64,000 bases of DNA from Pseudomonadota bacterium (GTDB lineage Bacteria; Pseudomonadota; Gammaproteobacteria; Magnimaribacterales; D2472). A program made the translations under genes and the position numbers. The stretch is from the NCBI GenBank assembly GCA_028404565.1, contig JAOOBR010000001.1, forward strand, positions 1-64,000. The letters run 5' to 3'. This document shows, in pieces, positions 1,149 to 17,970 of this stretch. The notes beneath the pieces are model-generated. The model was given only the letters and a program-made list of their open reading frames with translations. It was not told the origin of the DNA and made no database searches. Numbering within the stretch: the first letter of the stretch is position 1; each line of letters begins with the position of its first letter.

Positions 1149-1173
1149 TCAATAATTATAAAACAATAAAAAA

Positions 1174-1206
1174 ATTTGTAACATTTTGCTTTCTATCGCG
1201 TCTAAG
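1174..1206 (+). promoter_or_regulatory. putative ECF-type promoter of the sigma factor gene
   Basis: AAAAAAATTTGTAAC, 16-nt spacer, CGTCTAA; same architecture as at 2482-2513. Confidence 0.55.
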
Positions 1207-1233
1207 AGAAAAAGAAAAAATATTTATAAGAAT

Positions 1234-1812
1234 ATGGGAGCTATATCTGCGATTCGTCCTCCTGCTGAAATTAAGCAGCAAAATTCTATTGCTGTTAAAC
1301 AATCTAACTTGGAAGTATGCAAGAATAGAAAACATATGCCATTTAAGGATTTGCTCTCCTCTATCACTAAAAAGCTAGTGAGTTATGCATTGATGTTAAC
1401 TAGTAATAACGAAGATGATGCATGGGACTTAATCCAATCGACTATTGAAAAACTTATAAAGAATAAAGAAACGCTTCAAGCTTCTAATCAACCAGTGGCA
1501 TACGCCAAGCGAATCTTAAAAAATAATTTTATTGATAACTATCGAAAAGAAAAAAGAATGGTTTCCATTGAAGCCAATGATATTGCAATCAGCAATGATG
1601 GTTTGCAGGAAGCATCTGTAGAGTATCAAGAAATGTTGAAATTCTTAGAGGCTTTTGATGAAACTGATAGAACAATTTTAATGATGCTTGGCAAAGGACA
1701 TAACTACAAAGAAATTCAAGAAGTTGTCGGTGATATCAGCATGGAAAATTTAAGAGTAAAGGCCAATAGAGCAAGAATTAGTCTTGCTAATTGCATGGGT
1801 AGAAAATTATGA
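1234..1812 (+). CDS. RNA polymerase sigma-70 family (ECF-like) sigma factor
   Basis: Sigma region 2-like (DDAWDLIQSTIEKLIKN...RILKNNFIDNYRKEKR) and region 4-like (DETDRTILMMLGKGHNYKEIQEVV...LRVKANRARISL). The ORF's TTG start at 1186 lies inside the putative promoter, so ATG 1234 is preferred. Confidence 0.75.
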   Translation: MGAISAIRPPAEIKQQNSIAVKQSNLEVCKNRKHMPFKDLLSSITKKLVSYALMLTSNNEDDAWDLIQSTIEKLIKNKETLQASNQPVAYAKRILKNNFIDNYRKEKRMVSIEANDIAISNDGLQEASVEYQEMLKFLEAFDETDRTILMMLGKGHNYKEIQEVVGDISMENLRVKANRARISLANCMGRKL

Positions 1813-2477
1813 AAGAAGAAATACAACTAAAAATAATAGAACTAATGGATGACGGTGCCACACTTGAAAGTTCTCTGGAACTCAAAGCTCTTGTTGAGTC
1901 ATCTGATGAAGCAACTAAATTCTATGAAAGCATATTAGTTTCAGAATCTATGCTTAAAAGCTTCTTTGGTGGAGATAAAGCAAAAGCAATAGACAGCAAA
2001 ATAGATGCTTTAGTTGAAGAACAGTTAGCTAAACCTCAGATGGTATCAAGATTTAGCTTTAAACCAGCTGTTGGCTTTGCAGTAGCAGCTAGTTTAGCGG
2101 TCATCGCCCTAACCTTTATTGATCTTCCTACAAATACGGCTGTAAATAATGTCTCTGAGGTTCAGGAAAGTCTTAATGTAGCAAATGAATATCCAACTGA
2201 ATTAATTATTGTTGAGGAAAGTGAAACATTGATAATTTCTGGTTCTGAAATGGATACGCTTTGGAGTACAGCAACTGAAATGGCAAAAGAGCTTGGCGTA
2301 GACAGGTATGAAATCATGTATGTAATGTATGAAGGTAATAAGGATTTCTTTGTTGACTCCGACATCAATCAGCCAAGAGAAGATAAAGATTATTTTGTTG
2401 ATCTTTCTCTCATTGAAGATCTAGAAACACAATTCATCATCAATGAAGTAAAACGCCATATTTACTGTCGTTGTTAA
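1809..2477 (+). CDS. putative membrane anti-sigma factor with FimV/LysM-like C-terminal domain
   Basis: Overlaps the sigma stop by 4 nt (ATGA); one TM segment (PAVGFAVAASLAVIALTFI); C-terminal 'DTLWSTATEMAKELGVDRYEIMYVMYEGNKDFFVDSDIN'. Confidence 0.6.
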   Translation: MKEEIQLKIIELMDDGATLESSLELKALVESSDEATKFYESILVSESMLKSFFGGDKAKAIDSKIDALVEEQLAKPQMVSRFSFKPAVGFAVAASLAVIALTFIDLPTNTAVNNVSEVQESLNVANEYPTELIIVEESETLIISGSEMDTLWSTATEMAKELGVDRYEIMYVMYEGNKDFFVDSDINQPREDKDYFVDLSLIEDLETQFIINEVKRHIYCRC

Positions 2478-2481
2478 AAAA

Positions 2482-2514
2482 ATTTGTAACAAATCTCTCC
2501 CTGCAACGTTAATA
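2482..2514 (+). promoter_or_regulatory. putative second ECF-type promoter upstream of 2543 gene
   Basis: AAAAAAATTTGTAAC, 16-nt spacer, CGTTAAT; matches the promoter at 1174-1206. Confidence 0.55.
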
Positions 2515-2542
2515 AAATAAGCAACTTATTTTTGGAGTCAAT

Positions 2543-3232
2543 ATGGAAGAATATATCGGTTTTGGGATTGTAATCCTCGCACTAACATCATTAGTTTTAT
2601 TATTTAAAAAGATCTTTAAAAGAAATAACAGCTCACTAGGAAATGGAGATGAGATTATCCTCGACAGTGATATGGTGCACTATGGACCCTTTTCAGGTAA
2701 TCCAGGCCGACAACACTTTCGAAAATTTGTCTTCCTCTTAAGTATCTCATCTTCATTCCTTACCGCTGATATTGATATCCAAACGATGGATAATTGGGGT
2801 ATATCTTCTTTTGGTAATGAGCTTTTATATTTAGAAAAACACTCCGAAAATGTGCAATCGACTCTGTTTATTGCCATGGAGAGACCCTTTTGTATTTGCG
2901 CTAATCCTTTATTAACAGCTCCAGTTGGAAACTCTAGCTACAATCCTGGAGATAAAATTGAGGCAACGATGATTGTTGATCAACTCAAACCTAAAAAGAT
3001 TCATTTATATGTAGATACTATTTTTGAAAATGGTAATTATTTACTCAAACCAGTTAATTATCCGCCATTGCGATATGCAGAAATTATCCGAGTTAAATTT
3101 GCTACAAATGTTGAGCTCGAAGATATGCTTTTCAATACCAAAGGCATGTCTAACGCTATGAATCAATCAGAAAGGATTTGCTTTAGTAACTATATACTAG
3201 ATGAATCTAAAATGGATGACACTAAGGTCTAA
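2543..3232 (+). CDS. hypothetical membrane-anchored protein
   Basis: 229-aa ORF, N-terminal TM helix, no recognised family. Confidence 0.6.
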   Translation: MEEYIGFGIVILALTSLVLLFKKIFKRNNSSLGNGDEIILDSDMVHYGPFSGNPGRQHFRKFVFLLSISSSFLTADIDIQTMDNWGISSFGNELLYLEKHSENVQSTLFIAMERPFCICANPLLTAPVGNSSYNPGDKIEATMIVDQLKPKKIHLYVDTIFENGNYLLKPVNYPPLRYAEIIRVKFATNVELEDMLFNTKGMSNAMNQSERICFSNYILDESKMDDTKV

Positions 3233-3234
3233 AT

Positions 3235-3319
3235 TGGTAGGGATGGAGGGAGTCGAACCCCCACGCCTTGCGGCACTTGGTTCTAAGCCAAGCATGTCTA
3301 CCAGTTCCATCACATCCCC
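3235..3319 (-). tRNA. tRNA-Leu (anticodon UAG)
   Basis: Minus strand GGGGATGTGATGGAACTGGTAGACATGCTTGGCTTAGAACCAAG...GGGTTCGACTCCCTCCATCCCTACCA; loop CTTAGAA; encoded CCA. Confidence 0.95.
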
Positions 3320-15783: not shown

Positions 15784-17970
15784 TTATTGGGCTGCGAACT
15801 CAACTGCTTGATTAACATCAACAGAGACGACTCTGGAAACACCAGCCTCTTGCATTGTAACTCCCATTAGGTGGTCACTTTTTTCCATTGATACCTTGTT
15901 ATGGGTTATAAAGATAAACTGAATTTTCTTTGACATTTCTTCAACCATATTGATAAATCTTGAAGTATTTAGATCATCAAGCGGCGCATCAACTTCATCG
16001 AGTAGGCAAAAAGGTGCAGGATTTAATTCAAACAAAGCAAAGACTAAAGCTAACGCGGTCATAGCCTTTTCTCCACCAGATAACTGCGAAAGAGTCGAAT
16101 TCTTTTTACCTGGTGGACGAGCCATAAGCTTAACACCAGCATTTAGGTAGCTATTATCAGTAAGAGATAACTCTGCATTACCTCCTCCAAACATTATTGG
16201 GAAGATAGATTTCAACCTTTTATTTACTGCATCAAAACTCTTAATAAATTTTTCTTTAGTCTCTTTATCAATTTGTAAAATGGCCTTGTTTAACTTCTCC
16301 AGTGCTTCTTCTAAGTCTTCATTTTGCTTATCCAACTCATCTTTTCTTTTTCTCTCCTCAGCAATTTCATCTGGAGCCGCTAAATTAATGGCACCCAATC
16401 TGATAATTTTAGATCTAATGGTCTCAAGTTCCGATTGAAGTTCTTCTATCGATAAATCTTGATAGTTAGCTCTGTCAATATCATTAATATCAATTCCTGA
16501 TTCAGATATTCTTTTCGATGAATTTTCAAGATGAACACTATGAGAACTTATTTCAATTTTTGTATTGGTTATTTTTTCCTGAATTGCTTTAAGATCTAAT
16601 AGGGAAACACTTTTTTCATTTTCCAATCTTCTTATTTCTGCATCTACTTCTTGTTGATCTTTTCTAATAGAATTTAACTTAGTTTCTGCTGAGGCACTTG
16701 TCTCTATAAGCTCTTGAAGTTTTGTAGAAATTTCTTTTGAGCTTTGCGTTGTTTTCTTAAGTTCTGTCTCTAGGTTTTCTTGCTGGTTTAGATACTCATC
16801 GCTAATTTCTTTAGACTGTTTAAGAACAATATTGAATATGCTGAGCAATATATCTTTAAGTTGTTCTGCTTTGCTTTTGATTTCAGGAATAGAGATTTTA
16901 GAAATAATTTCATCTATTAAGTGAAGAGCCTTCTCTTTGGGAGACAAGTTTTCAAAATCTGAAGCTTTTTCAAGAGCATCTTCATAAGCCGCTTTTACTC
17001 TCTCAAGTTCTCTCGTCGTATTATCTTTGGTTGTTCTAATATTTTGAAGATTCTGTTCAAACCTCGCTATTTCTGACCCAACCTCATAAAACTTTTTCTG
17101 CGCATCTTCATATTTAGAAAGAACTGATTCATGCTCTGTTTTGTATTGATCAAGCTTAGCTTGCTTTACTGAAACTTCTGATTCTTTTACAGACTCGTCC
17201 TTTTGAAGCGCTGCGAGATTATTATTCAAAAGATCTCTTTTGTCTCTGGCATCAAGAGAAAACAGGATAGCAACATTCAATTCTTTTTCTTTTTCTTGAT
17301 TTTTATAATCTTTGTATCTATCAGCAGCTTTAGCCTGGCTTTCTAATCTTCTTATCAATCTTCCAATCTCATCCCTGATGTCATTGACTCTAGATAAGTT
17401 TTCCTTTGTCTTTTTTATTCTGCTTTCTGTTTCCTTTCTTCTTTCTCTATATTTTGAAACCCCTGCAGCCTCTTCGATGTGTGTTCTTAACTCCTCAGGC
17501 TTTGCACTTACCAAAGAGGAAACCATTCCTTGCTCGATAATTGCATAACTGCTTGGGCCAAGCCCTGTTCCAAGAAAAATATCCTGAACATCTTTCCTTC
17601 TACACTTAGTGTTATTGATGTAATAACTTGATTGACTATCTCTAGTCATGACTCTTTTTACGGATATCTCATTGAAAGCTGCATACTCGCCTCCTACTTT
17701 TCCACTTGAGTTATCAAATAAAAGTTCAATACTACACTGCCCGGATGGCTTTCTTTGCTCAGATCCATTAAAAATAACATCTGACATTGAATCGCCTCTA
17801 AGATTTTTTGCTGAGAGTTCACCAAGCACCCATCTGACAGCATCAATAATATTAGATTTTCCACATCCATTTGGACCTACAACGGCTACCATATTTGTTG
17901 GGAAAGATATCCTCGTGGGATCCACGAAACTTTTGAAACCAGCCAATTTAATGTGCTTAAGCTGCATCAA
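15784..17970 (-). CDS. smc: SMC chromosome-segregation ATPase, shortened, no recognisable hinge
   Basis: Walker A GPNGCGKSN; signature LSQLSGGEKAMTALAL; Walker B FCLLDEVDAPLDD; 728 aa versus about 1150-1190 aa for typical SMC. Confidence 0.9.
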   Translation of the reverse strand: MMQLKHIKLAGFKSFVDPTRISFPTNMVAVVGPNGCGKSNIIDAVRWVLGELSAKNLRGDSMSDVIFNGSEQRKPSGQCSIELLFDNSSGKVGGEYAAFNEISVKRVMTRDSQSSYYINNTKCRRKDVQDIFLGTGLGPSSYAIIEQGMVSSLVSAKPEELRTHIEEAAGVSKYRERRKETESRIKKTKENLSRVNDIRDEIGRLIRRLESQAKAADRYKDYKNQEKEKELNVAILFSLDARDKRDLLNNNLAALQKDESVKESEVSVKQAKLDQYKTEHESVLSKYEDAQKKFYEVGSEIARFEQNLQNIRTTKDNTTRELERVKAAYEDALEKASDFENLSPKEKALHLIDEIISKISIPEIKSKAEQLKDILLSIFNIVLKQSKEISDEYLNQQENLETELKKTTQSSKEISTKLQELIETSASAETKLNSIRKDQQEVDAEIRRLENEKSVSLLDLKAIQEKITNTKIEISSHSVHLENSSKRISESGIDINDIDRANYQDLSIEELQSELETIRSKIIRLGAINLAAPDEIAEERKRKDELDKQNEDLEEALEKLNKAILQIDKETKEKFIKSFDAVNKRLKSIFPIMFGGGNAELSLTDNSYLNAGVKLMARPPGKKNSTLSQLSGGEKAMTALALVFALFELNPAPFCLLDEVDAPLDDLNTSRFINMVEEMSKKIQFIFITHNKVSMEKSDHLMGVTMQEAGVSRVVSVDVNQAVEFAAQ

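Follow-up and report, generated by a model that had tools for sequence, protein, structure and literature searches.

A putatively autoregulated ECF sigma/anti-sigma cassette of SAR86 with two conserved, probable AAC/CGT promoters and, apparently, a single target gene

The hallmarks of ECF sigma factors are promoters of the AAC/CGT type, autoregulation and a neighbouring anti-sigma gene (PMC8103513). The locus described here resembles RpoE/RseA and SigW/RsiW in its AAC-type -35 and CGT-type -10 elements, in a sigma gene followed by that of a membrane anti-sigma candidate, and in its predicted positive autoregulation; unlike them, it is an accessory cassette which seemingly serves one gene besides its own operon, and partners of the RseB/DegS type are not part of it. 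The closest promoter that we found is that of ECF16, tGTAACc-N16-CGAA (PMC3420878, PMC8315932). EcfF of Bradyrhizobium and BcrS of Brucella, which belong to ECF16, have the -35 element tGTAACc with nearly the same spacing (N16-17; PMC3420878, PMC8315932), and also there an autoregulated sigma/anti-sigma operon is combined with a small target operon. Their -10 element is CGAA, however, whereas CGT[CT][TA]A (CGTTA or CGTCTA) is present here, which places these promoters outside the ECF16 consensus; in addition, the anti-sigma candidate has one transmembrane (TM) helix and a FimV-core/LysM-like outer domain, and the target genes differ.

The window, i.e., the whole stretch of 64,000 nucleotides that was analysed, stems from an uncultured bacterium of the marine SAR86 cluster and contains the following features of the locus:

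1149-3234, no strand assigned: module insertion, from the DUF4345 gene to the 3' end of tRNA-Leu (site empty in three congeners)
1175-1182, plus strand: -35 element TTTGTAAC of promoter 1 (predicted autoregulatory, 5' of sigma; invariant in nine compared sigma promoters)
1199-1205, plus strand: -10 element CGTCTAA of promoter 1 (16 nt past AAC; CGTTA at that place in relatives)
1234-1812, plus strand: ECF sigma factor, 192 aa, start ATG 1234 (PF04542, TIGR02937, orthologue starts)
1809-2477, plus strand: anti-sigma factor candidate, 222 aa (ATGA overlap with sigma, TIGR03505, structure model)
2483-2490, plus strand: -35 element TTTGTAAC of promoter 2 (5' of the target gene; repeat in the window, conserved in relatives)
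2507-2513, plus strand: -10 element CGTTAAT of promoter 2 (16 nt past AAC; relatives compared)
2543-3232, plus strand: target gene, 229 aa (alignment of 19 relatives, structure model, Foldseek 3dtd)
3235-3319, minus strand: tRNA-Leu, adjoining the module with its 3' end (2 nt from the end of the target stop codon)

The original observation, of two near-identical motifs of ECF promoter type with a 16-nt spacer and a CGT box, could be confirmed to the base. In the first copy, TTTGTAAC (1175-1182) is followed by a spacer of 16 nt (1183-1198) and by CGTCTAA from 1199; in the second, TTTGTAAC at 2483-2490 is followed by the spacer at 2491-2506 and by CGTTAAT from 2507. The full TTTGTAAC-N16-CGT motif thus spans 1175-1201, upstream of the sigma gene and ending 32 nt before its ATG at 1234, and 2483-2509, upstream of the next gene, between the stop codon of the anti-sigma gene (2477) and the target ATG (2543). 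Both copies belong to an exact direct repeat of 17 nt, TAAAAAAATTTGTAACA (1167-1183 and 2475-2491), which includes a run of A upstream of the boxes; in copy 2 this run is partly the anti-sigma stop codon itself (2475-2477). Since the spacers diverge after their first base, the copies are two fixed boxes at a fixed spacing and not one long duplication.

The sigma protein matched PF04542 (region 2) with 34.4 bits (cut-off 24) and TIGR02937 with 56.1 bits (cut-off 42.9), residues 38-187 being aligned to positions 4-164 of 165; Pfam region 4 alone gave no match in the protein from the window. With both scores above the cut-offs, the protein has the make-up of an ECF (group IV) factor, region 2 plus region 4 only, and an AAC -35 with a CGT -10 element lies upstream of its own operon, as in that group. 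That the gene starts at 1234 and not at 1186 was borne out as well: the orthologues begin at a Met which matches 1234, and TTG 1186 falls between the -35 and -10 boxes.

The gene after sigma, whose ATG overlaps the sigma stop codon (ATGA), is a candidate for a one-TM anti-sigma factor, judging from this overlap, the single TM segment, the helical N-terminal domain and the conserved linkage to sigma; a Pfam scan of the protein returned no known anti-sigma family. A hydrophobic segment at about residues 85-104 lies between the helical domain and a C-terminal domain (about 141-200), which is predicted to be periplasmic and resembles FimV-core/LysM-like domains. The structure model reached a pLDDT of about 85-92 over most of both domains, and Foldseek with the whole model gave no significant match; the LysM-like assignment is therefore based on sequence profiles. 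TIGR03505 (FimV core) was matched by 16 of 17 orthologues, with a best E of 1.7e-14, while the protein in the window scored 18.3 bits, i.e., under the curated cut-off of 43.45. A periplasmic LysM-like domain is known from FimV/HubP (PMC12918733, where the architecture is described), and the TIGR03505 matches of the orthologues suggest a likeness to it. Neither the long acidic cytoplasmic region nor the C-terminal TPR/FimV domain of FimV/HubP is found in the 222-aa protein, whose N-terminal part is short and helical.

For the target protein, an N-terminal TM helix, a conserved MxxGPFSG loop, a second hydrophobic, signal-like segment and a beta-sandwich domain were recognized, the latter with two invariant Cys in the alignment of 19 relatives and predicted confidently in the structure model. 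The top Foldseek match in the PDB was 3dtd, IalB of Bartonella henselae (probability 1.00, TM score 0.59 by target, 16% identity, E 0.016, 141 columns aligned to the 142-residue structure). The Pfam family IalB was not matched at E<=1 by any of the 19 members, and the target sequence had no match among PDB chains. The outer domain may hence be termed IalB-like by its predicted fold only, which is a modest link; besides lacking an IalB sequence match, the target differs from IalB by the extra TM helix, the MxxGPFSG loop and the second hydrophobic segment. Its relatives, from 97% identity downward, were mostly from SAR86; distant relatives outside SAR86 were not found in 369 genomes sampled across the class, and none were found in phages. 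A contig filed under a Crocinitomicaceae MAG (PBXW01000143.1, L129) carries a target gene with 62% identity and is probably a misbinned SAR86 contig. In one genome (G103; L127 5291-5981, L054 3979-4562 and L126 8-577), stop codons disrupt the target gene that follows sigma, the sigma reading frame has an interruption, and a further copy of the target was seen at a contig edge elsewhere in the assembly.

Sigma was present in 23 of 107 family genomes and the target gene likewise in 23, with both in 22, i.e., in 22 of the 24 genomes having either one. The motif had been expected to be kept in relatives, and AAC, N16 and CGT were indeed found before both sigma and target in all 11 of the closest module-carrying relatives, two of which have a tandem motif pair before sigma. 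In sets containing one sequence per lineage, TTTGTAAC was invariant, CGTTA was conserved to 93-98% and the 16-nt spacer to 72-76%. Of the 23 module carriers, 18 had the form TTTG[TC]AAC-N16-NGT[CT] before sigma, compared to 0.01 expected from dinucleotide-shuffled upstream regions, at a distance to the sigma ATG of mostly 26-35 nt; the five exceptions are genomes of genus g4, where a decayed motif is present at the same place. The g4 genomes (L056-L064) also have a conserved, near-palindromic site about 75-100 nt upstream of sigma, in which the better motif match is directed away from sigma, with no constant divergent gene. Among 12 species, the start of the spacer was seen to differ by promoter class, being mostly AACATTT in sigma promoters and AACAAAT in target and mltB promoters; such class-specific starts, kept across species, may reflect a tuning of promoter strength.

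A 14-letter version of the motif, TTTGTAACA-N15-CGTTA, yielded 26 matches in the 107 family genomes, and its reversed control yielded 0. Twenty of these are sense sites upstream of sigma or target; the remainder comprises three on the opposite strand just before sigma (g4), one at mltB, one leftover site and one in coding sequence. The matches are spread over 18 genomes, 16 of which carry sigma, though 84 of the 107 genomes are without it. The other two are G039, where the match lies inside a coding region and is regarded as chance, and G063, where it is a promoter left after a module swap.

A 40-position sequence model of the motif, built from 19 sites, ranked the two reported sites at the top in this genome (E 5e-8 and 6e-7); they were the only ones at E < 1e-6, and among the matches listed down to E about 0.1 there were no further sites of this genome. 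Since the model finds the two sites alone, the regulon in this organism would consist of the operon and one gene (assembly 79% complete). This agrees with the small, defined regulon that was predicted, and autoregulation is supported by the 18 of 23 carriers with a motif before sigma and by the 11 of 11 with a motif before both units. An additional site was present in three sister species of one genus or sublineage (G054, G065, G073), directly before a gene whose product is MltB, a cell-wall lytic enzyme (lytic transglycosylase; TIGR02282, 352 bits). The motif was not found at the other 47 mltB genes examined, and MltB was rejected as a general member of the regulon. At the mltB sites, no more than about 9 nt separate CGT from the chosen ATG, so that the real start may lie later. 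In another relative (G048) the target is divided: behind the anti-sigma gene, a remnant of 62 aa, which has the TM helix and a segment similar to MxxGPFSG, is preceded by the motif, and a secreted, unlinked target homologue, 16 kb from sigma, has its own motif about 26 nt before the ATG. The specificity of the motif is sufficient to locate the target gene even when it has moved away from sigma. Five stand-alone secreted target homologues in another SAR86 family had no sigma gene in their vicinity and no motif either. In G065 and G060, TGTAAC-N16-CGTTA stands upstream of a DUF4258-like gene (L173 5033-5057, L177 1501-1525); these sites contain the inverted repeat GTAAC-N12-GTTAC and may just as well be operators as ECF promoters. 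G036 has a paralogous second ECF sigma/anti-sigma system (L069 3605-8576), in which TGTAAC-N16-CGT occurs several times and a gene for an HtrA-like protease is present; a larger regulon is possible there.

Taken together, both motifs are very probably promoters of the ECF sigma factor encoded at 1234-1812, which would serve the operon it belongs to and one adjacent gene, the target, as an envelope-response module; we infer the assignment of sigma to promoter from linkage and conservation. The pair could also be promoters of a different sigma factor in the same cell, with the linked sigma regulating something else. The box itself is not specific to this sigma factor, as an almost identical -35 element serves the ECF16 group (PMC3420878). 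Furthermore, sigma was not detected in two of the three genomes with mltB sites (assemblies 63% and 71% complete), and in G063 (L121 4582-5090 compared with L052 776-2807) a single gene that matches OGFr_N has cleanly taken the place of sigma, anti-sigma and target, with the sigma promoter intact directly upstream. Such a reading is nevertheless unlikely, since just two of the 84 sigma-less family genomes have the 14-letter motif, one of them within a coding region, and since the motif travels with the module into different genomic contexts.

In three congeners (G006, G008, G010) the site is empty, with the DUF4345 gene followed by about 20 nt and then by the tRNA-Leu 3' end, whereas in this genome (G000) and in G002 the whole module occupies the gap; it is thus inserted precisely, like an islet, at the 3' end of a tRNA. 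In G004 and G009 the same gap is taken by different small genes, at whose border about 20 bp of the tRNA 3' end are repeated. The tRNA-Leu 3' end appears as an insertion hotspot (window 1149-3319; L253, L254, L252, L249, L251). The target gene of G060 and G076 ends beside the 3' end of tRNA-Ala instead; in two lineages, the module is placed directly at a tRNA 3' end. In G032 a target homologue lies behind a phage-type integrase. The three genes behave like a mobile unit that is complete in itself, a patchy accessory cassette of SAR86. Cargo at a tRNA 3' end is also typical of the additive islands of Methylophilaceae and of tycheposons in streamlined plankton; a copy of the tRNA 3' end as border of the cargo is described for tRNA-Lys (PMC10872708), comparable to the copies of about 20 bp which border the tRNA-Leu cargoes of the sister genomes. 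Unlike those islands, the module measures only about 2 kb, no integrase is present among its genes, the 20-nt tRNA end did not recur in the window, and the far side of the module has no repeat. Elsewhere in the window (15784-17970, minus strand), an SMC-like protein of only 728 aa is encoded, which is unusually small for an SMC.

With a module inserted beside a tRNA, a motif near its left end and, in G063, a swap which starts just downstream of the motif, one might think of the A-rich repeat with TTTGTAAC as a recombination or insertion repeat of the cassette instead of a promoter. This is very improbable: the second box is retained at exactly 16 nt although the spacer is variable, the motifs point into genes and end 10-43 nt before the sigma starts, copies exist also at mltB and at the unlinked target, and the repeats which are tied to this tRNA have a different sequence, namely that of the tRNA 3' end itself.

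A scan of the genome and its relatives had been suggested as a check; the full motif and its conservation gave support, the bare pattern did not. In the 64-kb window, TTTGTAAC-N16-CGT occurs exactly twice; with one mismatch allowed, 4 matches were obtained compared to 0.57 expected, and none of 100 shuffles reached 4. For the looser TGTAAC-N16-CGT, 4 exact copies were counted in the full 1.08-Mb assembly, the remaining two of them within coding regions, and its reversed control has 4 as well; used alone as a genome-wide scan, the bare pattern is therefore uninformative and without significance, which comes from the full motif and from the relatives. A chance resemblance in an AT-rich genome, to which the equal counts of bare pattern and control might point, is refuted by the comparative data and hardly deserves credence, given orthologous positions conserved in 11 further species and a reversed control of 0 for the longer motif in 107 genomes.

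If the promoters belong to the linked sigma factor, the following course of events can be proposed. In the resting state, the membrane-anchored anti-sigma candidate (1809-2477) would hold sigma via its cytoplasmic helical domain. Its periplasmic LysM-like domain might sense a change in the cell wall or envelope, upon which sigma would be freed, probably by proteolysis. Free sigma would then act at promoter 1, driving the sigma/anti-sigma operon in positive autoregulation, and at promoter 2, driving the one adjoining target gene, and thus raise the level of a membrane-anchored protein whose IalB-like beta-sandwich would face the periplasm. An envelope or cell-wall signal is favoured because of the wall-binding type of domain on the anti-sigma candidate and the occasional link to a lytic transglycosylase; signal, release mechanism and the task of the target protein are thus proposals. 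What the genomes themselves show is a pair of motifs conserved with constant spacing, hardly any further sites, the genes which make up the module, a sigma and a target that occur together, and a site that is empty in congeners.

The AAC/CGT type of ECF system as such is known already. New here are the FimV/HubP-like outer domain of the anti-sigma candidate, the IalB-like predicted fold of the target, the mltB motif in one sublineage and the precise occupation of the tRNA-Leu gap. Searches of the open-licence literature yielded no papers on FimV/LysM-like anti-sigma factors and none on an ECF system in SAR86, although this is weak evidence of absence; a LysM-like outer domain in an anti-sigma candidate, a one-gene ECF regulon and movement of a regulatory cassette at tRNA ends were unreported together in the literature searched. 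The wider picture, of a portable envelope-response cassette with a one-gene regulon, a wall-reading anti-sigma factor of a new, FimV/LysM-like kind and a membrane-tethered, IalB-like output, which spreads between tRNA sites among streamlined marine bacteria, is put forward tentatively and could well prove wrong. SAR86 bacteria are abundant in surface oceans, and some of them would thus carry a small, autoregulated ECF cassette for envelope response with essentially one target, whose promoter code, regulator and target can be read from sequence alone.
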